Positions 1,504 to 44,861 of a DNA stretch of 45,252 nucleotides are shown piece by piece. The number at the start of each line of letters is the position of its first letter. Within the stretch, counting starts at the first letter, position 1. Under the pieces are notes generated by a model. That model did not search any database and was not told the origin of the DNA. It worked only from the letters and a program-made list of their open reading frames with translations. The DNA comes from a virus. A program made the position numbers and the translations under genes. The DNA is taken from positions 1-45,252 of IMG/VR virus record IMGVR_UViG_3300022540_000340. One strand, given 5' to 3'.

Positions 1504-1519
1504 AAAACTTGACAGAATG
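1504..1519 (+). promoter_or_regulatory. start-codon motif AAAACTTGACA, copy 1
   Basis: AAAACTTGACAGAATG: the conserved block directly abuts the ATG of the HNH endonuclease gene. One of twelve copies in the window. There is no Shine-Dalgarno site. Confidence 0.7.
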
Positions 1520-2113
1520 AAAGAAACATGGAAGCCAGTAAATCACAAAGGCAAAACGTACCTAAACTACAAGGTGTCAAATCTTGGTAACGTTTGGAAG
1601 ATAAAAGATAACAAAATCCTTAAACCTGTTATCTTAAAAACTGGCGTACACTATTCCTATTTAGTAGAAGGGAAGAAAAACATTCCTATTCATTTGTTAG
1701 TTTGGCAGTCTTTCAAAGGTAAGATTAAGGAAGGGTTTTTAATCTCTCATAAAGATGGAGATAAGTATAATAATCGCCTGGAGAACTTAGAAAAGATTAC
1801 ACATAGACAAAAGCAGTCTAAAGATAACGGGCTTCCTATTGGGGTACTACTCACTAAGTCGGGTACATTTAGATCAAGCATTCGACTAGGTAAAAAAAAG
1901 CTTCATTTAGGTATTTATTTACGTGCTATCAATGCAGATAAGGCTTATGAGATAGCTTATAAATTAATCATAAGCGGAAAGTGTACCGATGAAATAAAGA
2001 TTAAAGAAGCGGTCAATGTCTTGCGTAAAAAGATACGGCTCAAACCTTTGCTTGATGCAACTAGGAGACTAAGCACACAACCGAAGCCTAAACATATTAT
2101 TTATAATTGGTAG
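1517..2113 (+). CDS. HNH homing-type endonuclease with NUMOD4 and AP2-like domain
   Basis: A 198-residue protein. The N-terminus has the NUMOD4 pattern W-x-P-V ... Y-x-V-S-N-L-G-N-V (residues 5-31). It is followed by an HNH core: a His-Leu-Leu-Val-Trp segment, then SHKDGD and the N-N-R-L-x-N-L-E stretch (about 65-105). The C-terminal part resembles an AP2 DNA-binding domain. Such free-standing enzymes nick or cut DNA and spread between phage genomes, so this gene may be an insertion in the early operon. A weak terminator follows at 2129-2151. The start is set by the AAAACTTGACA motif. Confidence 0.9.
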   Translation: MKETWKPVNHKGKTYLNYKVSNLGNVWKIKDNKILKPVILKTGVHYSYLVEGKKNIPIHLLVWQSFKGKIKEGFLISHKDGDKYNNRLENLEKITHRQKQSKDNGLPIGVLLTKSGTFRSSIRLGKKKLHLGIYLRAINADKAYEIAYKLIISGKCTDEIKIKEAVNVLRKKIRLKPLLDATRRLSTQPKPKHIIYNW

Positions 2114-2128
2114 CTATCTTAAATTAAG

Positions 2129-2151
2129 AAGGGCAAAAATGACCCCTTTTT
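2129..2151 (+). terminator. weak intrinsic terminator after HNH gene
   Basis: Stem AAGGG (2129-2133) with CCCTT (2144-2148) followed by a T run. The stem is short, so termination may be partial. Confidence 0.5.
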
Positions 2152-2169
2152 TCTGATAATATATAGAAA

Positions 2170-2532
2170 ATGAGAAATGCTGAACAAATAAAAGGGCTAC
2201 TTGGTTCTAGTGAAAAATCAAACAACTTGCTAGGAATTTACTGGTGCTTCCATAATGGAATGTTTGCTGATGACATTATTGACTTTTTAAGAATAGATAA
2301 TGAGCATTGGGATATTGCCGAAATTGAAATAAAAGGGAATCTATTATTAGGGATTGACGTAATAGAGCAAAGGACATATGAAAGGTGTTTTTTTGATGTG
2401 CCACTAAGGAAAAGAATTGAGATGATAGGGTTAAAAACTATTATTTCTTTTGATGAGAATATGTTTCAATTAATAGAGTTCATTATTACTGAGGAAGGAA
2501 AAAGATATATCCAAATGAGCATTAAAAAGTAA
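2170..2532 (+). CDS. hypothetical protein
   Basis: A 120-residue soluble protein with mixed helix and strand composition and several aromatic residues (GIYWCFHNGMF near residue 23). No family recognised. It lies between the HNH gene and the first structured leader RNA, and its stop codon is embedded in a tandem 10-bp repeat (2530-2549). Confidence 0.65.
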   Translation: MRNAEQIKGLLGSSEKSNNLLGIYWCFHNGMFADDIIDFLRIDNEHWDIAEIEIKGNLLLGIDVIEQRTYERCFFDVPLRKRIEMIGLKTIISFDENMFQLIEFIITEEGKRYIQMSIKK

Positions 2533-2549
2533 CTGGTTATAACTGGTTA
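2530..2549. repeat. two tandem copies of TAACTGGTTA
   Basis: Two adjacent copies of TAACTGGTTA. Each copy is a near-palindrome (TAAC..GTTA). They sit just upstream of the 27-bp box of the first leader, where an operator would be expected. The first TAA is also the stop of the preceding gene. Confidence 0.5.
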
Positions 2550-2565
2550 TTTTTAGGATGTTTAA

Positions 2566-2592
2566 ATAATTATTCGTATATTGTGGAACGGC
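2566..2592 (+). promoter_or_regulatory. 27-bp box, copy 1
   Basis: Twenty-seven bases identical to 3720-3746, containing TTCGTATATTGTGGAACGGC. The TATATTGT core resembles the Bacteroidota -7 element TAnnTTTG imperfectly. In this copy no TTG lies 19 bases upstream, so it is either a weak promoter or the conserved 5' end of the leader RNA. Confidence 0.55.
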
Positions 2593-2667
2593 AGTAAGTA
2601 AGGTGAGATATACTTTCTGTTGAGTTACAAAAAACAAGACCAAAAAAATATAATTTCTAAAGATATT

Positions 2668-2748
2668 AAAGCTTTGGAGGTACTAGGATTACACGCAATT
2701 TCTTGTTTTAGTCGTGTTTCTCACCCTATACCTCCAAAGCTTTTTTTT
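2668..2748 (+). terminator. terminator hairpin of leader RNA 1
   Basis: Perfect 15-bp stem (2668-2682 with 2729-2743), extended by TAGG (2684-2687) with CCTA (2725-2728), and a run of eight T at 2741-2748. The 46-base loop is long for a plain terminator and contains the A1' and A2' segments. Confidence 0.7.
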
Positions 2749-2764
2749 GTTTAAAATTGAAATT

Positions 2765-3352
2765 ATGGATATTGAAAATTGTGCTTATTCATTTGAAGGA
2801 GAATATTTCGACAAGAATAAAGAGTTTTGGGAATCTGACGACCTAGACCCTATTGATTCTTTTTTTATATCATCACTAAAGGTGTTTCACTATAGCGATA
2901 CTTCGGAGTCGTGGCTTCCTTTTATTGCCTCCTATGAAGATGTTATATTCCTTCCTTCGTTTAATGGCGTTAAAGTAGGTGATGTATTTTTGTCGAGTCG
3001 GGTTGAATGGATGGAAAGAGCAGACGATAAGCCTAATAATATTATATCTGTTTTTGATATTAAGAAAGAACTAAACTACACATATCTAGTTTTTGGAAAC
3101 GACGAAATAAGCCTATCTGTTGATATTAATCACATAGAGCGATACATAAAAGATATAGGAGCAAAATACATTTGCAACGCATTTGACGACAAACACCTAA
3201 TGTATGACAAGTGTTCATTTGAAAGAAATATGGTTGAAAAATCTCATTTAAAACGGTGTTTGCGGTACTACAAAGAAGGGTTTGAGGACTTATCACAGGA
3301 GAAACTAGAAAGAGAGATAGAAGAAGGATTACACGACATGCCATCTAACTAA
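2765..3352 (+). CDS. hypothetical protein controlled by leader RNA 1
   Basis: A 195-residue acidic protein starting MDIENCAYSF. The frame is open to 2714, but that start lies inside the terminator hairpin, so 2765 is chosen. The N-terminal part has F-W/Y-rich beta-type segments (residues 15-110) and the C-terminus is a charged helix. No family recognised. Its start lies 16 bases after the leader's T run, so expression should depend on reading through that terminator. Confidence 0.7.
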   Translation: MDIENCAYSFEGEYFDKNKEFWESDDLDPIDSFFISSLKVFHYSDTSESWLPFIASYEDVIFLPSFNGVKVGDVFLSSRVEWMERADDKPNNIISVFDIKKELNYTYLVFGNDEISLSVDINHIERYIKDIGAKYICNAFDDKHLMYDKCSFERNMVEKSHLKRCLRYYKEGFEDLSQEKLEREIEEGLHDMPSN

Positions 3353-3376
3353 CCCACCGAAAAAAACAACGAAATT

Positions 3377-3706
3377 ATGAAAGAAGAAATTATAATTGAT
3401 TTCATTTATTTAAGATACAAAGCGATGTACGGATTCCCTCAAGGTTATTGTGGGCAAATCGCAGAGGAGATACAAAAAACCATTGGAGGGGAATTAGTAG
3501 CAGGGTATTTGGCTTTCCCTTCTCACAATAGGGAGCATTGGTGGTTGGATTTAGACAATAAGATAATAGACCCGATGTCTGTTGAATTACAAAAAACCGA
3601 CCCACATAGGCATATAGAGATACATAGAGATTTGTCAAGAAGGTACTGGATTAAAGGATTTAATAAACAAAAAAAGATAAAAGCAAACGAAGGAATGCCC
3701 TTCTAA
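3377..3706 (+). CDS. small protein with Cys-His-Asp triad-like residues
   Basis: A 109-residue protein. Residues GYCGQIAEEI (Cys25), REHWWLDL (His54) and IIDPMS (Asp65) follow the Cys ... His-W ... Asp-P layout of compact transglutaminase-like or papain-fold enzymes. The Cys begins a helix and the His and Asp sit on adjacent strands. This may mean a peptidase, amidase or acyltransferase activity, but the family assignment is inference. It follows the leader-1 gene by 24 bases and so may share its control. Confidence 0.6.
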   Translation: MKEEIIIDFIYLRYKAMYGFPQGYCGQIAEEIQKTIGGELVAGYLAFPSHNREHWWLDLDNKIIDPMSVELQKTDPHRHIEIHRDLSRRYWIKGFNKQKKIKANEGMPF

Positions 3707-3708
3707 TT

Positions 3709-3746
3709 TTGCGGTCTGGATAATTATTCGTATATTGTGGAACGGC
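3709..3746 (+). promoter_or_regulatory. candidate promoter with 27-bp box, copy 2
   Basis: TTG at 3709-3711, then exactly 19 bases, then TATATTGT at 3731-3738. This matches the Bacteroidota -33 element and spacing with an imperfect -7. The 27-bp block 3720-3746 is identical to 2566-2592. Confidence 0.55.
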
Positions 3747-3921
3747 GAAAGCCAAATGCTATTTAGAATGTGAGAGACTCTATGTAGTAAGTTTAAAAGA
3801 AACAAACTAAAAATATAACTTCTTTTCAATATCAAATGGTATTGAAGAGAGTAGCACGTGCTTTATGTTTCTTTTGCACACTCTCAAACTTTTACGCTAC
3901 TTTCTTCAATACCATTTTTTT
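3720..3921 (+). ncRNA. structured leader RNA 2 (predicted pseudoknot and terminator)
   Basis: Same architecture as leader 1: A1 TGAGAG (3771-3776), A2 AAAAGAAACA (3795-3804), conserved block AAAAATATAACTTCT (3809-3823), B (3835-3855), inner arm GTGC (3858-3861), A2' TGTTTCTTTT (3866-3875), inner arm GCAC (3876-3879), A1' CTCTCA (3881-3886) and B' (3896-3916), then seven T (3915-3921). B:B' is a 21-bp stem with one G-T pair. The helix sequences differ from leader 1 but pairing is kept in all of them. The T run again ends 16 bases before the ATG (3938). Confidence 0.7.
3835..3921 (+). terminator. terminator hairpin of leader RNA 2
   Basis: A 21-bp stem between 3835-3855 and 3896-3916 followed by a T run to 3921. 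The 40-base loop holds a small GTGC/GCAC hairpin and the segments complementary to the upstream leader. Confidence 0.75.
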
Positions 3922-3937
3922 GTTTAATTTTAAACTT

Positions 3938-4768
3938 ATGAGAGGATTTGTAAAGTTACACAGGCAACTTATAGAATGGGAATGGTATCATGATATGAAT
4001 GTAAAGGCTACTTTCTTGCATTTACTGCTTACTGTTAATTTTAAGGATAAGCGATGGAAAGGTATATTAATCAAGCGAGGGCAAATATTAACTAGCTTGC
4101 AGCACTTAGCCGATGCTATTGGTATATCAGTGCAAAAACTACGCACAGCACTACTAAAGCTAGAGGACACTAATGAAATAACAAGGGAAGCAACAAGCCT
4201 TTTTACTATGATAACTGTCTGTAACTTCGACAGTTACCAAGATAAAGACCTTATGCAGCAACAAGCGGATAACAAACCATCAACAAGCGAGCAACAAGCG
4301 GATAACAAACCATCAACAAGCGAGCAACAACTACTAGAGAATGTTAAGAATGAAGAGAAGGATAATAATGAAGAGAAAAAATACCCTTACATAGAGATTT
4401 TCCAAAAAATAAAAAACGGCGAATTAATCAGAGTAACACAATTAGATAAAAACTTTCACTTTGGCTTATTCCCTGATGATTGGTCTGAAAACTTCCAAAA
4501 TGAAATACTTAGCTTTTGGCGTTACATGGAAAGTAAGAAATCAGATCGTTGGGGCGTAATTGGAACAATATCTAGTCAATTAAGCGCAATTAAAAGTTAT
4601 TTACAAGATTACACCGAAAATGAGATAATAAGCGCATTTGGCGAAACCATAAGCAAAGGAAATGTTTCTTGGAATCCTCTTTGGACTAAAAACCGAGATA
4701 AAATCTCAAAAGCAAAAAACGGACACGTTCCCACTTTTTCATATAACAGCAAAATAAGCAACGCATGA
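3938..4768 (+). CDS. replication initiator-like protein (DnaD / phage O type)
   Basis: A 276-residue protein. The N-terminal 95 residues, starting MRGFVKLHRQLIEWEWYHD, have the winged-helix layout of phage replication initiators (ILTSLQHLADAIGISVQKLRTALLKLE is the helix-turn-helix part). A linker contains QQADNKPSTSE twice in tandem. The C-terminal part (about 155-276) is helical and could contact the helicase. The stop overlaps the DnaB start by 4 bases (4765-4768), which supports a paired role in helicase loading. The frame is open to 3836, but 3938 lies just past the leader terminator and is preferred. Expression is probably set by leader RNA 2. Confidence 0.75.
   Translation: MRGFVKLHRQLIEWEWYHDMNVKATFLHLLLTVNFKDKRWKGILIKRGQILTSLQHLADAIGISVQKLRTALLKLEDTNEITREATSLFTMITVCNFDSYQDKDLMQQQADNKPSTSEQQADNKPSTSEQQLLENVKNEEKDNNEEKKYPYIEIFQKIKNGELIRVTQLDKNFHFGLFPDDWSENFQNEILSFWRYMESKKSDRWGVIGTISSQLSAIKSYLQDYTENEIISAFGETISKGNVSWNPLWTKNRDKISKAKNGHVPTFSYNSKISNA
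4257..4322 (+). repeat. 33-bp tandem duplication in initiator gene
   Basis: Two consecutive in-frame copies of a 33-bp unit encode an 11-residue repeat (QQADNKPSTSE). The copies look identical, so the duplication is recent or kept homogeneous. It lengthens the linker between the DNA-binding and C-terminal parts. Confidence 0.75.
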
Positions 4769-6213
4769 ACCAAGAACTACCAAACGAACCAGAAGTTGAA
4801 GCAAGATTGTTATCTGCAATAATTCAAAGCCCTGCAAGTATTTACAATTGCCTTAGCTTATTGAACGCTGAATGTTTTTATACTCAAAAATATAAGAACC
4901 TATGGGAATTAATAATTGAGCTACACAATAAAAAAGAATCATTTGATTTAGTTGGGATAGCATCAGGACTAAAAGATAAAAACCAATTAGAAGCTTTTGG
5001 AGGATTCGCAGGAGTTGCAGACTTTACAAGTAAATACTTTACTCACGATGTTACAGGAGCAAGTCGCATCCTTCACTCTAAGTTCATAAGAAGGAAAGCT
5101 ATTGTATCAAATTACGAACTAATCCGATTAGCTTTTGACCCAATGACCGACATAGAGACAGAAATATCAAAAGCACAAAACAAGCTAAATGAGGACATAT
5201 CTAGTCATATTGACATTACTAGCACCGCTCAAGATGTTTCAATGGATATAGCAAGGGAAATAAGTGATAATCTAGGGAAATACAAAGAAGTTACGGGCGT
5301 TCCAACTGGCTTTGAAAGTTATGATAAAAGAATTAGCGGATTATCAACAGAAGGAGATATAATAATAATCGCAGGTCGTCCAGCGATGGGAAAAACAACT
5401 TTTGCTTTAAATATTGCTCAAAACGCACAAAAGATATTTGGGAACAATGGCGCATTCTTTAGCCTTGAAATGAGTAAAAGGCAGCTTTGTAGAATCCTTT
5501 TAGCCCAACAAACAGGTGTTTCTGCTGATAGTTTAAAGAAAAACAAAGTAACTGACATTGAAATAGAGCATATTTTCAACAAACTAGCAGAAGATCCAAA
5601 GGCAAAGCTATTTATAGACGATGAAAGCCCACAATTAAGCTACATTGTATCTAAAATCCATAAATTAAAGCGTGACGAAGATATACAATTTGTTGTTATC
5701 GACTATATGCAACTAATCGCTTGTGAAGCTAAGAACAACAGGGAAAAAGAAATAGAGCATATTTCAAGAACATTAAAGAGAGTATCAAAAGCACTTGAAA
5801 TAGCCATAATTCCACTTTGTCAACTAAGTAGAGCAGTTGAGAATAGAGGGGGTTCTAAAGTGCCTCAATTATCAGACTTAAGAGACTCAGGCTCTATTGA
5901 ACAAGATGCTTCTGTAGTTACTTTTATTTATAGACCAGAGTATTACGGAATAACACAAGATGAAGAAGGAAACAGCCTTGAAGGTGTTACCGTTTTGGTA
6001 ACTAAAAAGAATAGATTTGGAGAGATAGGGAATGATTATTTATATTTTGATAAAGAAATGTCAGAGTTTTTTGATTATGACCACACAACAGGAAATAAAG
6101 TATCTGCTGATATGTATGATATGAGATTAGTAACAATGCAAAATATGAGAGTAGATACTGTTAGTAATTTTGCACAAAAAATAGAAGATGAAAACAAAAC
6201 AGAGAATTGGTAA
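4765..6213 (+). CDS. dnaB: replicative DNA helicase, DnaB family
   Basis: A 482-residue protein of normal DnaB length. The N-terminal domain begins with the family pattern NEPEVEARLLSAIIQSP. The RecA-like domain has Walker A GRPAMGKTT (about 204-212), Walker B VVIDYMQLI (about 309-317, Asp313), the arginine-finger region and the LSDLRDSGSIEQDA motif. It unwinds DNA ahead of the phage fork as a hexamer. It is coupled to the upstream initiator by a 4-base overlap. No separate primase was seen, so priming probably uses the host enzyme. Confidence 0.97.
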   Translation: MNQELPNEPEVEARLLSAIIQSPASIYNCLSLLNAECFYTQKYKNLWELIIELHNKKESFDLVGIASGLKDKNQLEAFGGFAGVADFTSKYFTHDVTGASRILHSKFIRRKAIVSNYELIRLAFDPMTDIETEISKAQNKLNEDISSHIDITSTAQDVSMDIAREISDNLGKYKEVTGVPTGFESYDKRISGLSTEGDIIIIAGRPAMGKTTFALNIAQNAQKIFGNNGAFFSLEMSKRQLCRILLAQQTGVSADSLKKNKVTDIEIEHIFNKLAEDPKAKLFIDDESPQLSYIVSKIHKLKRDEDIQFVVIDYMQLIACEAKNNREKEIEHISRTLKRVSKALEIAIIPLCQLSRAVENRGGSKVPQLSDLRDSGSIEQDASVVTFIYRPEYYGITQDEEGNSLEGVTVLVTKKNRFGEIGNDYLYFDKEMSEFFDYDHTTGNKVSADMYDMRLVTMQNMRVDTVSNFAQKIEDENKTENW

Positions 6214-6307
6214 AGTTGCAACAGTTGGAGATATAGCAAAACTATTTCTTCAAGAACTAAAAAAAGAGCATACAACCAAAAAGGCACCGACTACGAAGCA
6301 AAAGTAA
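6188..6307 (+). CDS. small basic protein overlapping dnaB end
   Basis: A 39-residue frame starting inside the end of dnaB (26-base overlap, different frame). The product starts MKTKQRIGKVATVGDIAKLF and is Lys-rich. It fills the gap before the methyltransferase gene. Coding status rests on packing and composition only. Confidence 0.4.
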   Translation: MKTKQRIGKVATVGDIAKLFLQELKKEHTTKKAPTTKQK

Positions 6308-6360
6308 TAGCACGGTACTCTAAACTAATAATATTAAAGTCATATTTAAACTAAAAAGCA

Positions 6361-7080
6361 ATGAATACTAAAGTCATTCACGGATGTTGCATGAAAGAAT
6401 TAAAATCTATACCTCAAGGGTCGGTAGATATGATTCTTTGTGATTTACCTTATGGATGCACAAATAACAAATGGGATAGTGTTTTACCTTTATCAATGCT
6501 TTGGTGTCAATATAAGCGAATTATAAAACCTGCAGGTATAATCGTGTTGTTTGGACAAGGAGTATTTAGTGCAACTCTAATGCTATCAAATAGAGAAATG
6601 TATAGATATAGCTTAGTTTGGGAAAAATCAACACCAACAGGGTTTTTGAATGCTAATAAAATGCCTTTGAGAAGCCATGAGGATATTCTAGTATTTTACA
6701 ATAAGTTACCAACTTATCACCCTCAAAAAACAACAGGACACAAAAGGAAAGTAAGTAAATCATCACACCAAAAGGGCAAATCTACTGACAGCTACAATAA
6801 ATTTCATGCAAGTAGCTACGACAGTACAGAACGATTTCCTAAGAGCGTTTTAAGATTCTCTACTGATAAGCAAAAGAGTGCTATCCATCCAACACAAAAG
6901 CCCGTTAAACTAATTGAGTACCTAATTAGGACTTATACAAATGAGGGTGACTTTATAGTTGATAATTGCGCAGGGAGTGGGACAACAGGAGAAGCTGCAG
7001 AAAATACGAATAGAAAATATTTACTTATTGAAAAAGAAGAAAAATATTATAATGAAATTTTAAAAAGATTAAAGAAATGA
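6361..7080 (+). CDS. DNA (adenine/cytosine-N) methyltransferase, DPPY type
   Basis: A 239-residue S-adenosylmethionine-dependent methylase. The catalytic motif IV is DLPY (residues 28-31) near the N-terminus. HPTQKP and the SAM-binding motif I DNCAGSGTTG (201-210) lie near the C-terminus, which is the beta-class order. DLPY fits N6-adenine or N4-cytosine methylation. The target region is about residues 95-175 and includes a Lys/Ser-rich stretch. No restriction endonuclease is adjacent, so it is probably an orphan used to protect phage DNA or mark it. The next gene overlaps by 4 bases. Confidence 0.93.
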   Translation: MNTKVIHGCCMKELKSIPQGSVDMILCDLPYGCTNNKWDSVLPLSMLWCQYKRIIKPAGIIVLFGQGVFSATLMLSNREMYRYSLVWEKSTPTGFLNANKMPLRSHEDILVFYNKLPTYHPQKTTGHKRKVSKSSHQKGKSTDSYNKFHASSYDSTERFPKSVLRFSTDKQKSAIHPTQKPVKLIEYLIRTYTNEGDFIVDNCAGSGTTGEAAENTNRKYLLIEKEEKYYNEILKRLKK

Positions 7081-7565: not shown

Positions 7566-7581
7566 AAAACTTGACAAAATG
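7566..7581 (+). promoter_or_regulatory. start-codon motif AAAACTTGACA, copy 2
   Basis: AAAACTTGACAAAATG abuts the start of the zinc-ribbon-like gene at 7579. Confidence 0.7.
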
Positions 7582-10204: not shown

Positions 10205-10217
10205 CTTGTCAAGTTTT
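10202..10217 (-). promoter_or_regulatory. start-codon motif AAAACTTGACA, copy 3
   Basis: On the minus strand AAAACTTGACAAGATG abuts the start of the multi-span membrane protein gene. Confidence 0.7.
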
Positions 10218-10380: not shown

Positions 10381-10393
10381 TTTGTCAAGTTTT
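10378..10393 (-). promoter_or_regulatory. start-codon motif AAAACTTGACA, copy 4
   Basis: Minus-strand AAAACTTGACAAAATG at the start of the 49-residue membrane protein. Confidence 0.7.
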
Positions 10394-10645: not shown

Positions 10646-10658
10646 TTTGTCAAGTTTT
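10643..10658 (-). promoter_or_regulatory. start-codon motif AAAACTTGACA, copy 5
   Basis: Minus-strand AAAACTTGACAAAATG. The TGA inside the motif is also the stop codon of the upstream gene (10650-10931). Confidence 0.7.
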
Positions 10659-10931: not shown

Positions 10932-10948
10932 ATTTTTTGTCAAGTTTT
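10929..10948 (-). promoter_or_regulatory. start-codon motif AAAACTTGACA, copy 6
   Basis: Minus-strand AAAACTTGACAAAAAATATG, with a longer A/T spacer to the ATG than the other copies. Confidence 0.6.
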
Positions 10949-11284: not shown

Positions 11285-11358
11285 GAACATGAGGCTAAAT
11301 TGGCGAAGCGCACCGAAGTAAGTAGGTGAGATTGTAGGTTCGAGTCCTACCTAGTTCA
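11285..11358 (+). tRNA. tRNA-like sequence with irregular anticodon loop
   Basis: A perfect T arm (GTAGG-TTCGAGT-CCTAC, 11334-11350), a D arm GCT...AGC with TTGGCGA in the loop, an acceptor with five of seven pairs and a normal total length of 74. The anticodon stem CACC/GGTG closes an 8-base loop (AAGTAAGT) plus a mismatch, so no standard anticodon can be assigned. AAG follows the only possible U33. It is either a degenerate tRNA or one with an expanded loop. Confidence 0.5.
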
Positions 11359-12389: not shown

Positions 12390-12460
12390 GGATGAGTGGC
12401 CGAGCGGTTAGGTAGTGGATTGCAACCCCACGCACGAAGGTTCGATTCCTTTCTCATTCT
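12390..12460 (+). tRNA. tRNA-Cys (GCA)
   Basis: All arms can be drawn: a seven-pair acceptor (12390-12396 with 12453-12459, one G-T), a D arm with GAGCGGTTA, an anticodon arm GTGGA-TTGCAAC-CCCAC with anticodon GCA at 12422-12424 (one A-C mismatch), and a T arm GAAGG-TTCGATT-CCTTT. CCA is not encoded. It is flanked by a leader hairpin and a terminator, so it is a separate transcript. Confidence 0.85.
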
Positions 12461-12511
12461 CTATAAAGGAGTTTCATTTTTACAAGTTTAATTAGGTTAA
12501 TTGGATAGTGT

Positions 12512-26563: not shown

Positions 26564-26884
26564 ATGAAAGAATTAATATTTGAGTTTGGGGTTTTCTATT
26601 TTATGGTTTGGTGGGTAATGTCTATTCTTTACACGGACAGCGTAAGGATTCATGCACGACTTGAAACCTTTAGTGATTGGATAGGTGCAACTACTAAAAA
26701 TGGTTGGTTCTTCCGAGAACTAGGAGCTTGTAAGTTTTGCATAGAAAGCCATACAGCTACTTTAATAGCAATAGGGTATTACTCTTATTTGGATTATTAT
26801 TTACTAAGTCCTGAGTGGTACATCTTAATTTGGGGCTTCTTCTTCGCTTCAATTAATTCATGGTTAAGAACATTTTTACAATAA
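26564..26884 (+). CDS. small membrane protein with CxxC motif
   Basis: A 106-residue protein with hydrophobic helices at about 5-22, 63-80 and 83-100 and a motif ACKFCIESH between them. It resembles small membrane proteins of the DUF1360 type, which carry a comparable Cys motif. Function unknown. Located in the middle of tail genes. Confidence 0.65.
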   Translation: MKELIFEFGVFYFMVWWVMSILYTDSVRIHARLETFSDWIGATTKNGWFFRELGACKFCIESHTATLIAIGYYSYLDYYLLSPEWYILIWGFFFASINSWLRTFLQ

Positions 26885-26897
26885 AACTTGATAGATG
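26883..26897 (+). promoter_or_regulatory. start-codon motif AAAACTTGA, copy 7
   Basis: AAAACTTGATAGATG at the start of the tail chaperone gene. The only copy in the late region, and it deviates at the fifth base from the end of the block. Confidence 0.55.
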
Positions 26898-27383
26898 CAC
26901 GTAGTCAAATTTAAGCAACCAAAAGCAAAGCAAAAGAAAAAGTTATTAGATAGGATTAAGCATTTCTTTAAGCATCCTTTAGAGTCTTTTTATACTCATA
27001 GCGTGGTGTTTTATGATAGTGCTGAAACCCTACCATATAGGCGTTATCACAAGTTTAATAAGTTCTTTATGATAGCTAGTGAGGTGGGTTGTTCTGTTGG
27101 GGATTACGATAAGAGAATGCAAAGGGCAATTAGTTATGTGAATACTAAAGACTTTAAATCAGCAGGAAAAGAACTAACGAATCAACGGCAATGCGTACAT
27201 CATGCTTTAGAAGAATACAGCCCTAAAGGGATGGCTTTAGCTGTTACGGTTTACAGTATTAATGGGGCCGTTTGTGATAAGTACCAAGACGATGATTTAA
27301 ACTTGATACTAGATAAGCTTGATGAAATAGGCTTTACTAAGTTAATGGCAGATACTGCGATTGAAACGGTAAAAAAAAAATAG
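26895..27383 (+). CDS. tail assembly chaperone, short form (G-like)
   Basis: A 162-residue soluble helical protein starting MHVVKFKQPKAKQKKKLLDR, directly before the GT-type frame and the tape measure gene. It ends GTA AAA AAA AAA TAG on a run of ten A (27371-27380). This is the standard place and form of the phage tail chaperone, which makes a short product and a -1 frameshifted longer one. Confidence 0.75.
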   Translation: MHVVKFKQPKAKQKKKLLDRIKHFFKHPLESFYTHSVVFYDSAETLPYRRYHKFNKFFMIASEVGCSVGDYDKRMQRAISYVNTKDFKSAGKELTNQRQCVHHALEEYSPKGMALAVTVYSINGAVCDKYQDDDLNLILDKLDEIGFTKLMADTAIETVKKK

Positions 27384-27709
27384 AATTTGAATTAGAAACC
27401 TATCATGCGTCACATTTTAGGGGGAATATGAGTTATAACCTAGCAAGAATTAGGAGGAGTGATTCAATTTTTGATAGAATACTAGGCACGGCAGACGAAG
27501 CGGATACTTTAGAGTTTGAGAATGAAATGATGCGTTTGTCTATTCCTCAAAATTGGAATGTATTTATCAAGGGCAATGCTGAATTGAAAATGAGTAACGG
27601 GTTTGAAGAGTTTATGTTCCTTGTCTCTGAACATACAAATGAGGACTTAGATAAGATTTCTTTATTAAGGTTTTACAACCTGTTAGATTATATTAAAAGT
27701 AAGCAATAA
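26895..27709 (+). CDS. tail assembly chaperone, -1 frameshift product (GT-like)
   Basis: A -1 slip on the ten-A run changes the frame to ATA GAA TTT GAA TTA and continues with no stop for 16 codons into the ATG at 27428, then to 27709. The fusion is about 271 residues. The downstream frame also has its own ATG but is open back to the slip site, which is the signature of a programmed frameshift as in lambda G/GT. The two products bring tape measure and tube subunits together during tail assembly and are not in the virion. Frequency of slipping is unknown. Confidence 0.75.
27428..27709 (+). CDS. T-domain frame of the tail chaperone
   Basis: A 93-residue frame starting MSYNLARIRRSDSIFDRILG. It could be translated separately from this ATG, but the open frame back to the A run favours production mainly as the frameshifted fusion. 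It ends 12 bases before the tape measure gene. Confidence 0.6.
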   Translation: MSYNLARIRRSDSIFDRILGTADEADTLEFENEMMRLSIPQNWNVFIKGNAELKMSNGFEEFMFLVSEHTNEDLDKISLLRFYNLLDYIKSKQ

Positions 27710-38843: not shown

Positions 38844-39018
38844 GGCGATTTGTTTGTCTATTTGTTTTTTAATAATCTTCAATAATCACTTTGGGGGTGA
38901 GAGTTACGGTATAATCAATATCTTGGCTTACATTTTTAATGATATTGATTTTTTAGAATTTATTAAAGGTGGGTCAGGTTTAGATCCTACTAATTTTGTT
39001 AATAGTTTTATACAATAA
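38794..39018 (+). CDS. small membrane protein, possible lysis partner
   Basis: A 74-residue protein starting MTESNVYLRTTKRKIIKAIC, with a basic start, one hydrophobic segment (about 18-30) and a Gly/Asn-rich tail. The 50-base overlap with the preceding membrane gene, in another frame, resembles overlapping lysis-gene pairs. Role unproven. Confidence 0.5.
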   Translation: MTESNVYLRTTKRKIIKAICLSICFLIIFNNHFGGESYGIINILAYIFNDIDFLEFIKGGSGLDPTNFVNSFIQ

Positions 39019-39023
39019 ATAAG

Positions 39024-39287
39024 ATGGGAATTAATTTAATTGAGATTGATGGCAATTCGGCTACTTTTGAAAATAGCGAAGGGTCTTTGGAAGGTAGTTT
39101 GACATGGAATGACCCCGTTGAGAATGGGGGTATTTGGGAGGTTACTTTTCAAGGAACAGATACTTTGAGCGACCCTATATCTACTCAGACTACAGAGATA
39201 GACCAATCTGAGACTATTAACCCTACAAAGGTTTTTTGGTGGATTGCGAACAAGTTAAAAGAGGTTCTTTGTCCAGAATGCGAATAA
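39024..39287 (+). CDS. small protein ending in a CPEC motif
   Basis: An 87-residue acidic strand-rich protein starting MGINLIEIDGNSATFENSEG and ending LCPECE. Last gene of the rightward late region, followed by a strong terminator. Confidence 0.6.
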   Translation: MGINLIEIDGNSATFENSEGSLEGSLTWNDPVENGGIWEVTFQGTDTLSDPISTQTTEIDQSETINPTKVFWWIANKLKEVLCPECE

Positions 39288-39309
39288 ATTTGGCTTTGTA
39301 TTATAGTTT

Positions 39310-39343
39310 AGCCCCTCAGTTGTCAAGTACTGAGGGGCTTTTT
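39310..39343. terminator. strong terminator at the end of the late region
   Basis: AGCCCCTCAGT (39310-39320) pairs perfectly with ACTGAGGGGCT (39329-39339) followed by T5. The 11-bp stem can also work for the leftward operon that ends here. Confidence 0.9.
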
Positions 39344-39355
39344 GTGTTTAGAATC

Positions 39356-39640
39356 TTAGGCAAATTCAAATCGTAATTTATGGACTTCTTTAGGTATTTC
39401 AGACATAAAGACCTCAAACCCAACAGAATCATCCGTATTGTATTCGTGTTTGATTATTTCAGTTTCTAGTTTTTCTTCTAGCAAATAAGACTCCACATAC
39501 TCAGACCCAAAGAATTTAGCGGTCTCTTCTGGTAGTTTCTCAATTCCTGCATTCTCACAAGCTTCTAATACTGCCTTGTGTTTTTGGTAATCTTCATTGT
39601 TTTCTGAAATATATCCTTTTAGATAAATTGACATTCCCAT
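39356..39640 (-). CDS. small acidic hypothetical protein
   Basis: A 94-residue protein starting MGMSIYLKGYISENNEDYQK. The region upstream reads AAAACTTAATAAAAATG, a relaxed version of the start motif. No family recognised. Last gene of the leftward operon. Confidence 0.6.
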   Translation of the reverse strand: MGMSIYLKGYISENNEDYQKHKAVLEACENAGIEKLPEETAKFFGSEYVESYLLEEKLETEIIKHEYNTDDSVGFEVFMSEIPKEVHKLRFEFA

Positions 39641-39661
39641 TTTTATTAAGTTTTTTATAAA

Positions 39662-39940
39662 TTATTTAATCAGTTTAATTATCAAAGGTCTGCTCAAAAA
39701 TACATTCTTACCCTCCAACGTTTCAAAAACAGGAGATAATCTCAAATCCTTTTCAACCGTGTAGGCTCGTATTTTAAGCACCTTCTGTATTCCTTTCGCT
39801 TCGACTTCTACGGTTGCGCCTACTGGATAAGGAGCGTTATCCTTTATGAATTTATCTTTAGCAAATCGAATAGCTTTAGTTGATATTTCTATATTCATGT
39901 TGTGGTGGGCTAGTTCTTGTATTAATTCCTGCTTAGTCAT
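39662..39940 (-). CDS. hypothetical protein
   Basis: A 92-residue protein starting MTKQELIQELAHHNMNIEIS, with a helical N-terminus and a strand-rich remainder (a small beta-barrel is possible). No family recognised. The start carries the AAAACTTGAC motif. Confidence 0.6.
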   Translation of the reverse strand: MTKQELIQELAHHNMNIEISTKAIRFAKDKFIKDNAPYPVGATVEVEAKGIQKVLKIRAYTVEKDLRLSPVFETLEGKNVFLSRPLIIKLIK

Positions 39941-39952
39941 TAGTCAAGTTTT
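39938..39952 (-). promoter_or_regulatory. start-codon motif AAAACTTGAC, copy 8
   Basis: Minus-strand AAAACTTGACTAATG. Its TGA is also the stop of the small frame at 39944-40048. Confidence 0.65.
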
Positions 39953-40048
39953 AGAATTTACCCAACCCATAAACGCCAACAAAGACGAATATAGGCAGGG
40001 CTTTAAATTGTTTCGGGTGCAAAATTGCGCGTAGGTTTTAATGCTCAT
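39944..40048 (-). CDS. 34-residue small protein
   Basis: A short frame starting MSIKTYAQFCTRNNLKPCLY and overlapping the upstream stop by ATGA. It ends with the TGA inside the next gene's start motif. Two overlapping junctions support coding, but the length is small. Confidence 0.4.
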   Translation of the reverse strand: MSIKTYAQFCTRNNLKPCLYSSLLAFMGWVNSKT

Positions 40049-40497
40049 TTTAGGATACTTAAAAACAAAGTTTCAAATACTTTCTTATCGTTCTTTGCTG
40101 AAAGAAAATGATTTTCGGTTAAGTCTCCAATTGTATCGCTGTATTGGCAAATAGCTAAACCTAAGTGCATTTTTTGTTCCTCATATCCAAAGTGATTTGT
40201 AAATACGTCTTCGTAGGTATCATAGTTGTTGATAGTTTCTTGCATATTGCTCTCTAAGGCAGTTTGCATTGACATTATTAAGTCATCTACATTACTCTTT
40301 AGTTCCTTTATGTTTTTATCGTTAGATACATCATAATCTCCTACCTCGCATCTTCTTTCGTCTGGAACATCCACGTAAACCTCCAACCATTCAAATTCGT
40401 TGTCAATGGCATCGATTTTATCGTTAAAATCTAAAGTAGTTAAGTATTCTGCTATACTGCAACCTAACCAAGCTTCAAATAGTGTTATTGGTGTCAT
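40045..40497 (-). CDS. acidic hypothetical protein
   Basis: A 150-residue strongly acidic helical protein starting MTPITLFEAWLGCSIAEYLT. No family recognised. It follows the amidase gene by three bases. Confidence 0.6.
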   Translation of the reverse strand: MTPITLFEAWLGCSIAEYLTTLDFNDKIDAIDNEFEWLEVYVDVPDERRCEVGDYDVSNDKNIKELKSNVDDLIMSMQTALESNMQETINNYDTYEDVFTNHFGYEEQKMHLGLAICQYSDTIGDLTENHFLSAKNDKKVFETLFLSILK

Positions 40498-40500
40498 GTT

Positions 40501-41157
40501 TTATTTACGTTTAAAGAAAATATCTTGGTACAAAGACACAAACTCGAGCCAAGATTCAAAAATAGTGAGCGTGTAAAGGTTTCTGAATGATTCTAGTTTA
40601 AGCTTTTCTAATTCTGCTAAGTTGGTCATAAAAGCAGCTTCAAACAGGACAAAAGGCGAAGCTGTGTATTTTGTCATATAAAGCTTCTTATTTCTAACTC
40701 CTCTATTCTTTAAGCCCGTTGCTTTGGCGATGTTATTCAGGGCAATTTCAGCGAATAGCCGAGACTTTGAACCCTTGTTGATAAAAGCCCCTGTTCCATT
40801 CGCAGACTCAACACGGAACGCATCAGCGTGGAAGGACATACCAAAGCAAAGGCGGTCTTTATAGTTTTCATTATAAGCTTTCTTTTCTCTTATAACCCTT
40901 CTATACATTGGCGTATCTTTGTGTTCTAGGCTTAGATTAGAAGAAGTGATGTCAATGCCCGTACTTTTAGCCAAACTACAAAGAATCCCCATTTTAGCTT
41001 CAATGCTTGTATTGAATGTATTCTCTCTTAGGCTACCATCTGTTGCCCGCTTGCCCTTTGTTTCCCAACCGTGACCGCTATCCAGTATCAAGTGCGTAGG
41101 TGTATGGATAAGGTGTTTATAGTGCTGTAAAGTTTTTGAAAAGTCTTTTAATTTCAT
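40501..41157 (-). CDS. N-acetylmuramoyl-L-alanine amidase (Amidase_3), putative endolysin
   Basis: A 218-residue zinc amidase. The metal ligands are His29 in LILDSGHGWE, Glu45 in SLRENTFN and His110 in MSFHADA; Glu173 in LFEAAFMTN fits the catalytic Glu. The enzyme cleaves the amide bond between muramic acid and the peptide. There is no signal peptide, so export would need a holin. It sits in the leftward recombination operon and not beside the late tail genes. Confidence 0.9.
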   Translation of the reverse strand: MKLKDFSKTLQHYKHLIHTPTHLILDSGHGWETKGKRATDGSLRENTFNTSIEAKMGILCSLAKSTGIDITSSNLSLEHKDTPMYRRVIREKKAYNENYKDRLCFGMSFHADAFRVESANGTGAFINKGSKSRLFAEIALNNIAKATGLKNRGVRNKKLYMTKYTASPFVLFEAAFMTNLAELEKLKLESFRNLYTLTIFESWLEFVSLYQDIFFKRK

Positions 41158-41159
41158 TG

Positions 41160-42038
41160 TTAAAGTTTGTTAGCTTCTATAAGAATATAAGAGTTTACTT
41201 TAATTAGTAATTTTTCAATATTTGCCATAATTATATTACCTTCCTTTGTACTTAATTTAGGCTTTTTAAATTCAGACTTAATTACTTCTGCAAATTGTAA
41301 CAACTTTGCTTTGTCGGGTGCTGCTGCTGCTTTGGCCTTTTCAACTAATAGCAGTCTTTTTTCTTCTAGTCTGGCTTCTTCCTTTTTAGCAGCAGCCTTT
41401 TTTAATTTATCGTTCTCTGCTTGTAGTTTTTTACGTTCTTTTTCTTTGGCAATATCCTCTAGTCGTTTAGCTTCTATTCGATTTTCTTCTTCAATCCGTT
41501 CTTGCTCTAATCTCAAAGCTTCCTTCTTTTCAGCTTCCTTTTTAGCTTCAAAAGTTTGTATTGTGCCAATTAAAAAGCTATTCCAAATAGAAACATCCAT
41601 ATCCCCAAGATTCAAAGGAATTACTTCTACTTCGTATTGTTCTAATTGTGATTCTCTCTCTATTTGAAGTTCTTTAATTTTCTCCTTTTCGATATTCTCA
41701 TAATATTTTTCAATAGTAGATAGCTTTTCCTCTATTCCTTGGGATGCCATTAATTGAGCGTTCTTCCAACCATCGACAAAACGTCCACCTTTCAAGTAAA
41801 AAGACTTCAATTCCTTATGTATTGCTGATGTTCCCGTTCGAACTTTTACATACTTTAATCTTAATGTTTTTGCTTGTTTACAAACGTCTTTAGTAAATGG
41901 TAGCTTTTGTAATTCGTTAAACTCCTTTTCTAAATTTACCATTTCTTCCAACATTGGCACAAACATCTTTGAAATATCTGCCGCTTTAGTTTCTTCTAAT
42001 CCGTATTGTTCGTGGTCTACTTTAATTAAGTTACTCAT
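41160..42038 (-). CDS. coiled-coil protein of the recombination operon (DUF1351-like)
   Basis: A 292-residue protein starting MSNLIKVDHEQYGLEETKAA. An N-terminal part (1-130) is followed by a long Glu/Lys/Arg/Ala coiled coil (about 165-245). Proteins with this layout, DUF1351-like, are frequent beside phage annealing proteins. The family call is moderate. The ATG at 42038 is preferred to the upstream TTG because of the start motif. Confidence 0.6.
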   Translation of the reverse strand: MSNLIKVDHEQYGLEETKAADISKMFVPMLEEMVNLEKEFNELQKLPFTKDVCKQAKTLRLKYVKVRTGTSAIHKELKSFYLKGGRFVDGWKNAQLMASQGIEEKLSTIEKYYENIEKEKIKELQIERESQLEQYEVEVIPLNLGDMDVSIWNSFLIGTIQTFEAKKEAEKKEALRLEQERIEEENRIEAKRLEDIAKEKERKKLQAENDKLKKAAAKKEEARLEEKRLLLVEKAKAAAAPDKAKLLQFAEVIKSEFKKPKLSTKEGNIIMANIEKLLIKVNSYILIEANKL

Positions 42039-42049
42039 TGTCAAGTTTT
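42036..42049 (-). promoter_or_regulatory. start-codon motif AAAACTTGACA, copy 9
   Basis: Minus-strand AAAACTTGACAATG, a copy with the shortest spacing to the ATG. Confidence 0.65.
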
Positions 42050-42499
42050 TTAATGTTTATTATCGTGAGTTAAATTTTGTAATCTTTTTTTATCCTCCTT
42101 TTCAAAGCTTATTCTTTGTTGGCAAGCAGATAGAACTTTGTTTAATTGCCTTAATTGGAGACTAATTATGTAGCTCATTTTCTCCTCTTCAATTTCTATC
42201 CTTCTATTTTCCTCGTTTGCTAGTTCTGCTTTTTCTTCTGCTTTAGCTGCTGTGTCACCGTTGCCTATATGGTAGAGTTTTTTAATGCTGTGGTTGTGCT
42301 TTCGCTCAAAGTAAGCAGTTAGATAGGATGCTTTACAATCTCCTGTTATTTTGCCTATATTCGTACTTAATAGGCTAAGTTTATCTTGAAAATCAAGGAG
42401 CTGCAATATGCTTGCTTTGTCTGCATTCTTTTCGTACCAATCTAGTAAGACATTTACCATGCTTATAACCTCTAAGTCATTCTTATTTAGTTGTATCAT
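42050..42499 (-). CDS. helical hypothetical protein
   Basis: A 149-residue Glu/Lys/Leu-rich helical protein starting MIQLNKNDLEVISMVNVLLD. No family recognised. Overlaps the next upstream gene by 17 bases. Part of the recombination operon. Confidence 0.6.
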   Translation of the reverse strand: MIQLNKNDLEVISMVNVLLDWYEKNADKASILQLLDFQDKLSLLSTNIGKITGDCKASYLTAYFERKHNHSIKKLYHIGNGDTAAKAEEKAELANEENRRIEIEEEKMSYIISLQLRQLNKVLSACQQRISFEKEDKKRLQNLTHDNKH

Positions 42500-42761
42500 C
42501 CTTACTTTTATTTAACTCTTCGTAAGAAATAAGGCATTTGTCGTAAAGAACATCATCATAGGTAGCGGATCCAATAGCTATCCCCTCATTAATTTCAAAC
42601 TCCAAAACCTCGTTATCCTCAAACTCTTTGAGTGTTAATGTGGTTTCTTGCTTCGGTTCTTCTGTTGATTCAATTAGGGGCTGGCTTATATTCTCGTTAA
42701 ACCAAGATATATGTTTGACCCTGTTTAGTTCTGTTGAGCATTGCCCGTTAGGTAGTTTCAT
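42483..42761 (-). CDS. small acidic hypothetical protein
   Basis: A 92-residue acidic protein starting MKLPNGQCSTELNRVKHISW. No family recognised. Its start touches the stop of the ERF gene (one-base overlap). Confidence 0.55.
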   Translation of the reverse strand: MKLPNGQCSTELNRVKHISWFNENISQPLIESTEEPKQETTLTLKEFEDNEVLEFEINEGIAIGSATYDDVLYDKCLISYEELNKSKDDTTK

Positions 42762-43414
42762 TACTTCTTAATTTTAGCTTTGTTTAATGCAGTTACTATT
42801 AAGGCTTTTTGTACGGGTGTTATTTTGTAGTTCTTTTCTACCCTTGCGATAGTCCATTTCTTTTCAATAGCCCAATCTATGACTTGATTAACTTTCCCCT
42901 CTATTAAAAAAGTTCTTTTATCAACTTTCTCCTTTTGTGGAGTAGCTATGCTTTCTGAATGTGTTATATCAGTATCGTCTATTTTCCCCACGGGAGTTAA
43001 AAACATATAAAGCAAACAGTTTTTAAGGGCGTATGTAGTTGCTTTCCCTGCTCCTTTATCTTGACTGTCTACTCCATGCCCGTAACCGCTTAATTCAATA
43101 GATTCTCCGCTTTCGTGAAGTAATAAATACTTAGTCACAACCTCAGTTAAAATAGATTGTTTAGTCTTTTTCGCTTTTGGTGTTGCCTTACTCCACGGGT
43201 CAGTTTCCTCCCATCTTGATAGTGTTGTTTTAGGCTCAATACTTATTGGGAGAATACAAAGTCCATTGTTAGCCATTGCCTTATTCATTACCTCCTTAAC
43301 GTCTTGGTCTTTCGTGCCATCATAAGAACTATTACCAGTACCTACACGGCTGTTTTTCTCCATTCCTTTAACTTCCTTCATTACTGCTATAATCGCTGCT
43401 GCTATTTGTTTCAT
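42761..43414 (-). CDS. erf: ERF-family single-strand annealing recombinase
   Basis: A 217-residue protein. The family core is seen as an N-terminal helix with EVKGMEKNSRVG, a middle region LTEVVTKYLLLHESGESIEL and the motif GHGVDSQDKGAGKATTYALKNCLLYMF (about 110-140), which is characteristic of ERF proteins. ERF rings anneal complementary single strands and help circularise and repair phage DNA. A basic helix-turn-helix-like C-terminus follows. It starts with an AAAACTTGA motif. No partner exonuclease was recognised. Confidence 0.9.
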   Translation of the reverse strand: MKQIAAAIIAVMKEVKGMEKNSRVGTGNSSYDGTKDQDVKEVMNKAMANNGLCILPISIEPKTTLSRWEETDPWSKATPKAKKTKQSILTEVVTKYLLLHESGESIELSGYGHGVDSQDKGAGKATTYALKNCLLYMFLTPVGKIDDTDITHSESIATPQKEKVDKRTFLIEGKVNQVIDWAIEKKWTIARVEKNYKITPVQKALIVTALNKAKIKK

Positions 43415-43427
43415 TGTATCAAGTTTT
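43412..43427 (-). promoter_or_regulatory. start-codon motif AAAACTTGATA, copy 10
   Basis: Minus-strand AAAACTTGATACAATG at the start of the ERF gene; one substitution (T for C) in the block. Confidence 0.6.
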
Positions 43428-43800
43428 AAAGGTGGAAAGTATTTTGTTCGTTTTGCATTCTTTTTTCAGCATCCCAGTCCGCTTGCCATGCAAACTCCTG
43501 TTCTCTTTTGGTCAAAACAGGGGTTTCTTCTGTGGCTGTTGGAGGGTTGTTATCTAGGAGCTCAATTAAAGGGTCTTTAGCTTTTTTAGATTCTACCTTA
43601 TAGGTTATAGGGTAATTGTCAATTAATGTCATTATAGACGAATTAAAAAGGGCTTGATTAAAAGTCCTCTCGCTATAAGTATTTACTTGTTGACGATTAA
43701 CGATATGGATATAAACTTTTCCAAGCTTTTTGAATATATCCCCTGTTTGGTAAGAATAGGATTTTGTTTGTGTGTCGATGTGATACGTTGTTGTTTTCAT
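43426..43800 (-). CDS. first gene of the leftward recombination operon
   Basis: A 124-residue protein starting MKTTTYHIDTQTKSYSYQTG with a strand-rich first half and a Glu/Asp-rich end containing WQADWDAEKRMQ. No family recognised. It is promoter-proximal, so may be made early and in quantity. Confidence 0.6.
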   Translation of the reverse strand: MKTTTYHIDTQTKSYSYQTGDIFKKLGKVYIHIVNRQQVNTYSERTFNQALFNSSIMTLIDNYPITYKVESKKAKDPLIELLDNNPPTATEETPVLTKREQEFAWQADWDAEKRMQNEQNTFHL

Positions 43801-43836
43801 TTCAATTTCTTTAGTCGTTAATTAATTAGTGTGACA

Positions 43837-43844
43837 CAAATATA
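43837..43844 (-). promoter_or_regulatory. -7 element of the leftward operon promoter
   Basis: On the minus strand TATATTTG matches TAnnTTTG exactly. No TTG lies at the -33 position, which falls near the edge of the 11-bp repeats, so activity may need or be changed by a bound protein. Confidence 0.55.
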
Positions 43845-43870
43845 CAACGGGTTTCTTTAATTTCCTAATT

Positions 43871-43914
43871 ATTAGAAAGAAATTAGAAAGAAATTAGAAA
43901 AAGATTGGAAAGTT
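43871..43914. repeat. four 11-bp direct repeats, likely operator
   Basis: ATTAGAAAGAA, ATTAGAAAGAA, ATTAGAAAAAG and ATTGGAAAGTT follow each other without gaps. Eleven bases is one helical turn, so a protein could line up on one face. The last copy contains the TTG of the rightward promoter. Confidence 0.75.
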
Positions 43915-43934
43915 AAAATATTATTGTATCTTTG
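43905..43934 (+). promoter_or_regulatory. rightward early promoter
   Basis: TTG (43905-43907), exactly 19 bases, then TATCTTTG (43927-43934): a perfect Bacteroidota -33/-7 pair. The next ATG is at 43963. It overlaps the fourth 11-bp repeat. Confidence 0.85.
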
Positions 43935-43962
43935 AGTTATTGGATAACGAAATTAAAAACAA

Positions 43963-44271
43963 ATGAAACTAAAACAGCGAAAGCAAAAAGGCGTTTCAGC
44001 AGAAGCGTTGGAGTTTATAAAGTCGGAGTACTTATCTTTATTAGATAATTATGGTTTTACTGTTGTATCAGCGACAAGACAGGCATCTAATACCATTAAA
44101 GGGATAACCGTAAGTGGAAAGACTTTAAGAAAGATTTTTGAAGGTGTCCACATTCACACCAAAACCGTAAAGAGTATTATTTTAGAACTTGGCGAGACTG
44201 TGAGCATTGAAAACGGGCTTATTTGTGTTGCTGAAAAAATAGAAAGCGATGAAGACTGTAATAATAATTAA
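43963..44271 (+). CDS. first early gene, possible DNA-binding regulator
   Basis: A 102-residue basic helical protein starting MKLKQRKQKGVSAEALEFIK. Residues about 35-70 could form a helix-turn-helix (TRQASNTIKGITVSGKTLRK then IFEGV). As the first gene after the operator region it is a candidate binder of the 11-bp repeats. Overlaps the next gene by 23 bases. The family is not certain. Confidence 0.6.
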   Translation: MKLKQRKQKGVSAEALEFIKSEYLSLLDNYGFTVVSATRQASNTIKGITVSGKTLRKIFEGVHIHTKTVKSIILELGETVSIENGLICVAEKIESDEDCNNN

Positions 44272-44602
44272 AGGCTTAATAGCAGGGCTTAATGGCTCAG
44301 ATGGACTAATGCAAGAACATTACCGTAAAGGAATAAAGAAAAAGAAAAAGTATCAGCAAATAATTAGAAGCCAAACAAAAAACAGGCACGAAGGGAAAGT
44401 GTCTATTACTTATATTGGTTATAAGTCCGTTCTAATGGATTGGGACAATTTTGCAGCTAGTTTTAAGTACTTAGGGGACTCGCTTGTTAAAACGAAGGTA
44501 ATTATCGACGACAGCCCAAAAATAGTACGTCCGTTTATTATTCAGCAAATAAAATGTAAGAGAATTGACCAACGGGTTGAAATTATAATTGAAGATATTT
44601 AA
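44249..44602 (+). CDS. RusA-like Holliday junction resolvase
   Basis: A 117-residue protein with the acidic residues of RusA: Asp64 and Asp66 in MDWDNF, Asp77 in LGDSL and Asp87/Asp88 in IIDDSP, in the usual order D-x-D-N ... D-x-L ... D-D. RusA dimers cut four-way junctions in late recombination. The Lys-rich segment near 27-35 could bind DNA. Slightly divergent at the N-terminus. Confidence 0.8.
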   Translation: MKTVIIIKGLIAGLNGSDGLMQEHYRKGIKKKKKYQQIIRSQTKNRHEGKVSITYIGYKSVLMDWDNFAASFKYLGDSLVKTKVIIDDSPKIVRPFIIQQIKCKRIDQRVEIIIEDI

Positions 44603-44636
44603 AAATCCCAAAGCGGTAAAACTAATTATTAATAAA

Positions 44637-44652
44637 AAAACTTGACAAAATG
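44637..44652 (+). promoter_or_regulatory. start-codon motif AAAACTTGACA, copy 11
   Basis: AAAACTTGACAAAATG at the start of the 54-residue gene. Confidence 0.7.
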
Positions 44653-44814
44653 GATATAAGCGAAAAAACAATGAAGGGAATGGAACTTCATGAACAAGTT
44701 CAAATAACAACAAAGGGTAAATATCCAACTACCTTTTTCATAACAAGAACAATAGGCGGATGGATTTACGAATCATCAAACGAACCTGTTCAATTCGTTT
44801 TCGTAAAAGAGTAA
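44650..44814 (+). CDS. 54-residue hypothetical protein
   Basis: A short frame starting MDISEKTMKGMELHEQVQIT, strand-rich after residue 15 and ending VKE. The start motif gives strong support for translation. No family recognised. Confidence 0.65.
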   Translation: MDISEKTMKGMELHEQVQITTKGKYPTTFFITRTIGGWIYESSNEPVQFVFVKE

Positions 44815-44845
44815 ACACCCACTTAAAAATTAATTTAACTAAATA

Positions 44846-44861
44846 AAAACTTGACAAGATG
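44846..44861 (+). promoter_or_regulatory. start-codon motif AAAACTTGACA, copy 12
   Basis: AAAACTTGACAAGATG at the start of the repeat protein that crosses the join. Confidence 0.7.

Follow-up and report, generated by a model that had tools for sequence, protein, structure and literature searches.

An 11-nucleotide start-associated motif in a virus record of putative Bacteroidota origin: a candidate translation-initiation element

How start codons are chosen in bacteria that do without Shine-Dalgarno (SD) sequences, and how phages take over the translation of such bacteria, is an open question. Bacteroidota, in particular, start protein synthesis without the usual SD signal. The question is raised here by a 45,252-base virus record (IMG/VR IMGVR_UViG_3300022540_000340; this whole stretch is called the window below), in which the 11-mer AAAACTTGACA or a close variant stands immediately before 12 of the 72 start codons. 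The structural proteins of this phage are similar to those of Flavobacterium, Croceibacter, Elizabethkingia, and B124-14-type Bacteroides phages, and Leeuwenhoekiella phage Arctus_1 shares its best terminase stretch; these resemblances place the host in the Bacteroidota and, very likely, in the flavobacterial lineage. The reading that we favor, and to which we give somewhat more credence than doubt, is that the 11-mer is a start-associated element of mRNA translation initiation for a mostly non-structural gene set, with a phage-specific recognition core that would be read by a phage-specific factor.

A precise 11-mer tied to start codons

Set against shuffled sequence, as a sequence-only reading of the window had proposed, the motif stands out clearly: 9 exact copies are present, while dinucleotide shuffles contain a mean of 0.07 and a maximum of 1. 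Sites with at most 1 mismatch number 14 compared to 2.46 expected, which 0 of 100 shuffles reached. Sites with 2 mismatches show no excess (42 versus 35), and the signal is, therefore, a precise sequence and not AT-richness. Twelve of the 14 sites are start-linked, all on the strand of the gene concerned, with both strands being used (Table 1). With a background chance of 0.023 for a start-linked position, this gives P of about 1.6e-18, and P = 6e-11 if AAAAC sites alone serve as background. Furthermore, CTTGAC is start-linked in 10 of 10 cases when it follows AAAA, compared to 0 of 15 cases without the preceding AAAA, and a reversed-motif control yielded 0 of 4 start-linked sites in the window.

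The 12 start-abutting copies on both strands that the sequence-only reading had listed were all recovered, except that 3 of them (26883, 39942, and 43417) carry 1 mismatch. Its minus-strand coordinates were 3 to 9 bases too low, and the gap of 2 to 9 bases that it gave has to be corrected to 0, 1, 2, or 6 nt, with 8 sites at 2 nt and 11 of the 12 at 0 to 2 nt. Its observation that all marked genes but one are non-structural or accessory was confirmed, as only the tail assembly chaperone-like gene lies within the head and tail module. Four consecutive leftward genes (starts 10931, 10645, 10380, and 10204) are all marked. The proteins encoded by 7 of the 12 marked genes have no assigned function, and for the small phage proteins, there were no homologs to align.

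Table 1. Start-linked copies of the motif in the window and the genes that they precede (aa, amino acids; w/o, without).
Sequence	Position	Strand	Gap to ATG (nt)	ATG	Marked gene and context
AAAACTTGACA	1504..1514	+	2	1517	HNH endonuclease gene, 1517-2113 (HNH_3, NUMOD4)
AAAACTTGACA	7566..7576	+	2	7579	90-aa protein w/o assigned function
AAAACTTGACA	10207..10217	-	2	10204	395-aa protein, membrane-type sequence
AAAACTTGACA	10383..10393	-	2	10380	49-aa protein
AAAACTTGACA	10648..10658	-	2	10645	74-aa protein; TGA stop of upstream gene inside motif
AAAACTTGACA	10938..10948	-	6	10931	93-aa protein, first gene of leftward operon
AAAACTTGATA, one mismatch	26883..26893	+	1	26895	tail assembly chaperone-like, phrog_8914; overlaps upstream TAA
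AAAACTTGACT, one mismatch	39942..39952	-	1	39940	92-aa protein
AAAACTTGACA	42039..42049	-	0	42038	292-aa protein, Cellulophaga phage phi10:1 homolog; directly after upstream TAA
AAAACTTGATA, one mismatch	43417..43427	-	2	43414	ERF annealing protein; overlaps upstream TAA
AAAACTTGACA	44637..44647	+	2	44650	54-aa protein
AAAACTTGACA	44846..44856	+	2	44859	alanine/serine-repeat protein running across contig ends

Several features of the genome are worth recording besides the motif. The contig ends (1-59 and 45195-45252) hold the same GCTTCTGCGG repeat in one coding frame of alanine/serine repeats; therefore, the genome is probably complete and circularly permuted. Two neighboring frames at 26895-27709 correspond to the N- and C-terminal portions of phrog_8914, a layout resembling that of phages with a frameshifted tail assembly chaperone, for which a joined coding sequence is annotated in phage 1/32. 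An Rfam scan of the window returned two tRNAs (11285-11358 and 12390-12461) and no other RNA family, with ARAGORN giving only the second, as tRNA-Cys. Sigma-70 and terminator scans of the window yielded no excess over shuffles. At 39310-39339, between converging rightward and leftward gene sets, a strong hairpin of 11 pairs precedes a T-run and is probably a terminator.

Anatomy of the marked start regions

Alignment of the 12 sites revealed 9 invariant positions (AAAACTTGA) and 2 near-invariant ones (C or T, followed by A). Conservation has sharp edges at the 11-mer: only a weak A follows the motif, and no conserved column was found in the 45 nt upstream of it. At the usual gap of 2 nt, AAAA occupies -13 to -10, the core CTTGAC occupies -9 to -4, and an A stands at -3. 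Across the motif starts, A is found at -3 in 83%, at -12 in 92%, and at -13 in 75%, and G at -6 in 67%; the other 60 genes prefer A as well (75% at -12, 67% at -3) and lack the CTTGAC core. SD-like sequence precedes 0 of the 12 motif starts and 2 of the 60 other genes, in line with the earlier statement that the motif is not an SD sequence, and an SD core (AGGAG-type, pairing with the 16S rRNA 3' end) is not contained in AAAACTTGACA, judging from the letters of the motif. The distances from the motif starts to the upstream gene are 4, 10, 11, 11, 26, 40, 44, 47, 52, 104, and 226 nt, in addition to one divergent start, and 4 copies (10648, 26883, 42039, and 43417) form stop-motif-start junctions within gene series.

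The A-rich shell and the way in which the copies are positioned, oriented, and set at gene junctions argue for an mRNA initiation region, and phage specificity (see below) together with the invariant core argues for recognition by something that the phage brings or alters; action would, according to this picture, take place at the level of RNA and translation. The outer parts of the 11-mer would supply the normal SD-less context of Bacteroidota (AAAA at about -13 to -10, A at -3), and the invariant CTTGAC would be an added, phage-specific recognition sequence. It is probably read on the mRNA, beside the start codon, by a phage-specific factor, which may be an RNA-binding protein, a small RNA, or an altered ribosome, and which would raise or lower initiation on the marked genes as a group. 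In searching the phage for an antisense partner, the full complement of the motif was found at the motif sites themselves only.

A rather unlikely alternative is that the motif serves the host ribosome as a strong SD-less binding context, of which one good version has been reused with no dedicated factor. The A-rich shell and the A at -3 fit positive determinants in Flavobacterium johnsoniae (PMC6847099), and predicted structure at -13 to -3 is slightly more open at motif starts than at other starts (unpaired fraction 0.67 versus 0.63). However, such a context leaves unexplained the invariant CTTGAC core, which has G at -6 although A is favored there and which is absent from 60 other starts of the same phage.

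Alternatively, the 11-mer could be a -7-type box of a phage-specific promoter, with leaderless or nearly leaderless transcripts, which we consider improbable. The sigma-A promoter of Bacteroidota is TAnnTTTG with TTG or TTTG 17 to 23 nt upstream, and this, not TTGACA/TATAAT, is the pattern against which the motif has to be held; the sequence-only reading, which had dismissed TTGACA as a promoter element for want of a -7 box, was nevertheless right in that no conserved promoter partner exists at the 12 sites. Several positions of AAAACTTG agree with TAnnTTTG, and, judged by the spacing between CTTG and the ATG, transcription would begin close to the ATG in the majority of cases. Yet two positions of AAAACTTG, both invariant in 12 of 12 copies, do not fit TAnnTTTG, and the genome does contain canonical TAnnTTTG boxes at other places (10991+, preceded by TTTG at 19 nt, and 43927+). 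Beside the motif copies, neither a -33 element nor an inverted repeat was found. Moreover, at a gap of 0 (42039) or 6 nt (10938), transcription would begin within the ATG or produce a leader, copies are embedded in series of closely spaced genes, and neither a sigma factor nor an RNA polymerase turned up among the scanned proteins.

The sequence-only reading had left open whether the element shared by this presumed regulon sets translation or binds a repressor. Orientation, near-fixed spacing, junctions, and the missing promoter partner best support translation initiation. A DNA operator for a phage repressor, such as the ribbon-helix-helix-like 11047 protein, has little probability in our view: many copies do lie near gene starts on both strands, and the four-copy operon and the putative regulator gene 11047 point away from each other, but the site is single, asymmetric, without inverted partner, and strictly gene-oriented, and it is positioned by the ATG rather than by promoters, with copies within operons. 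Family scans returned no family match for the 11047 protein. It is harder still to credit the motif as a boundary for modular gene exchange by recombination that plays no part in expression. Small accessory genes are numerous among the marked ones, one marked gene encodes an HNH endonuclease, and the phage has an ERF annealing protein; against this, 11 bases are very short for homologous exchange, similarity stops sharply at both motif edges, and the motif occurs at gene starts only, including those of ERF and the tail assembly chaperone.

Host lineages and other Bacteroidota phages

Start regions of related phages and host lineages, in which the sequence-only reading had proposed to count the motif, hardly contain it. 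In 1.25 Mb of fetched loci (related phages and prophages), it is start-linked at 1 of 59 sites, and the count of AAAACTTGACANNATG (motif-NN-ATG) does not exceed two in any of 149 genomes from one flavobacterial family, that of the Dokdonia metagenome-assembled genome holding one of the loci (L264), nor in any of 149 genomes from the class of this family, the two draws overlapping slightly. IMG/VR records with motif-NN-ATG had 1 to 3 copies each among the matches listed, and no second cluster was seen; a control pattern with AAG in place of ATG matched IMG/VR records too, so that single matches mean nothing.

Start motifs were also sought de novo, with a finder that scores 8-mers in the 20 nt before starts and takes mid-gene ATGs as null, in 19 Bacteroidota phages (the window and 18 others). 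The null score did not exceed 6.4 in any of them, whereas the window scored 18.0. As a positive control, an earlier version of the finder had returned the SD words TAAGGAGG and AAAGGAGG in some other, unrelated loci. Croceibacter phage P2559S scored 14.8 with ACCGAGAGC at eight start sites (locus L374: 1506, 2005, 14331, 28258, 30680, 34174, 35886, and 37398), 1 to 9 nt before the ATG, two of these copies being AACGAGAGC. Bacteroides phage BS-TP2 scored 11.4 with TACACGATT, which, exactly or with one mismatch, touches the ATG at eight starts (12136, 13071, 13469, and 14078 in L400; 3728, 7501, 9568, and 10291 in L401). A BS-TP2-like fragment (L411) was considered as evidence of conservation and set aside: it keeps the TACACGATT sites, but is 96-97% identical throughout and, thus, uninformative. 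Cellulophaga phage phi40:1 (9.7) has a weaker start motif, and Nonlabens phage P12024S (8.6) a TTTCCGTTAATA-like repeat 4 nt before the ATG; Harreka_1 and phi10:1, with AT-rich words, scored just over the null.

The motif-by-phage table is nearly diagonal, i.e., each motif is start-linked essentially in its own phage only, and the sequences are unrelated. The P2559S motif is found at starts in 0 of 5 sites in P2559Y, although both phages infect the same strain, which argues against a plain preference of the host ribosome, as does the near absence of the window motif from starts of related phages and host lineages.

In P2559S, the homolog of the tail assembly chaperone-like gene has AACGAGAGC (one mismatch to the P2559S motif) 9 nt before its ATG. 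This gene as a shared target of the tags is a one-gene lead, with a chance of roughly one in eight, because about 8 of the 68 P2559S genes carry the motif. The homolog of B124-14 (L375, start 20889, minus strand) has AAGGAGGTGA before its ATG, which is SD-like and extended, in a phylum that rarely uses an SD.

Several points weigh against the favored reading and its extension to other phages. The gap between motif and ATG is not constant but ranges from 0 to 6 nt. Family scans of most small proteins for a trans-acting factor yielded nothing convincing, and relatives sought by terminase, portal, membrane protein, and DNA included none with the motif. The figures on host use of the motif come from related lineages. 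Furthermore, the start repeat of phi40:1 may in part reflect duplication, perhaps of a promoter region, as 11447 and 11963 (L403, minus strand) are preceded by long stretches that are nearly identical and end in [CA]ACTATCAAA, and the P12024S repeat (L260: 163, 3015, 5396, 23945, 25185, and 26786), upstream of which a longer AAAACAAATATAC stretch is conserved, has the appearance of a phage promoter. That Bacteroidota phages each tag their own mRNA set with a private 8-11 nt sequence instead of an SD, through which an RNA-binding factor encoded by the phage, or a ribosome altered by it, switches translation of the set, is put forward here as a tentative and rather doubtful generalization.

Comparison with known start-region signals

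We found no report of start-associated sequences in Bacteroidota phages in the open-access literature searched, which is weak evidence of novelty. The closest counterpart is the start-associated sequence (SAS) of Cluster K mycobacteriophages, present in 11-19 copies per genome a few nt before starts and containing AGGAG complementary to 16S rRNA, with about half of the copies having upstream inverted repeats (extended SAS, ESAS) (PMC3203893); its function was still awaiting verification in 2025 (PMC12699233). Like the SAS, the 12 copies in the window are short, asymmetric, gene-oriented, placed mostly at non-structural genes, rare in the related loci and genomes examined, and sometimes include the upstream stop codon. 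Unlike the SAS, they lack SD complementarity and an upstream element, are unrelated in sequence, belong to a phage of putative Bacteroidota hosts, and are often closer to the upstream gene (4-226 nt, compared to mostly >50 bp). Cluster EF Microbacterium phages have a SAS-like GGGAAAGGACCCC, for which the authors gave an alignment with the 16S 3' end and a link to an ESAS (PMC7302621); its ten copies resemble the window motif in lying at the ribosome-binding position and in having a sequence specific to their phage group, whereas the window motif has neither the 16S 3'-end match nor an ESAS. Membership in the SAS of either cluster was considered and rejected, as both SD core and ESAS were looked for and are absent. 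By analogy, the motif is a distinct variant that would work like the SAS of these phages.

Within the Bacteroidota, F. johnsoniae initiates in a Kozak-like, A-rich, SD-less context with A at -3, -6, -12, and -13 (PMC6847099). At most of its starts, the window motif retains the A at -3 and -13 to -10 favored by these ribosomes (PMC6847099), with G prevailing at -6, but in place of a weak compositional preference, it is a near-invariant 11-mer with a CTTGAC core on one-sixth of the starts. The rpsU gene of Bacteroidota, in turn, has an extended SD read by bS21-less ribosomes (PMC9976891), a special initiation region through which a distinct ribosome state selects an mRNA; its long anti-SD pairing has no equivalent at the motif starts. 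The 11-mer of the window and the different sequences that several other Bacteroidota phages have at the corresponding place suggest a so far undescribed control over which genes of the phage are translated, and that the SAS phenomenon of actinobacteriophages may recur in a phylum where anti-SD pairing cannot explain the tag. A fixed non-SD tag on a defined gene set, differing among several phages, offers clean targets for mutagenesis and pull-down.

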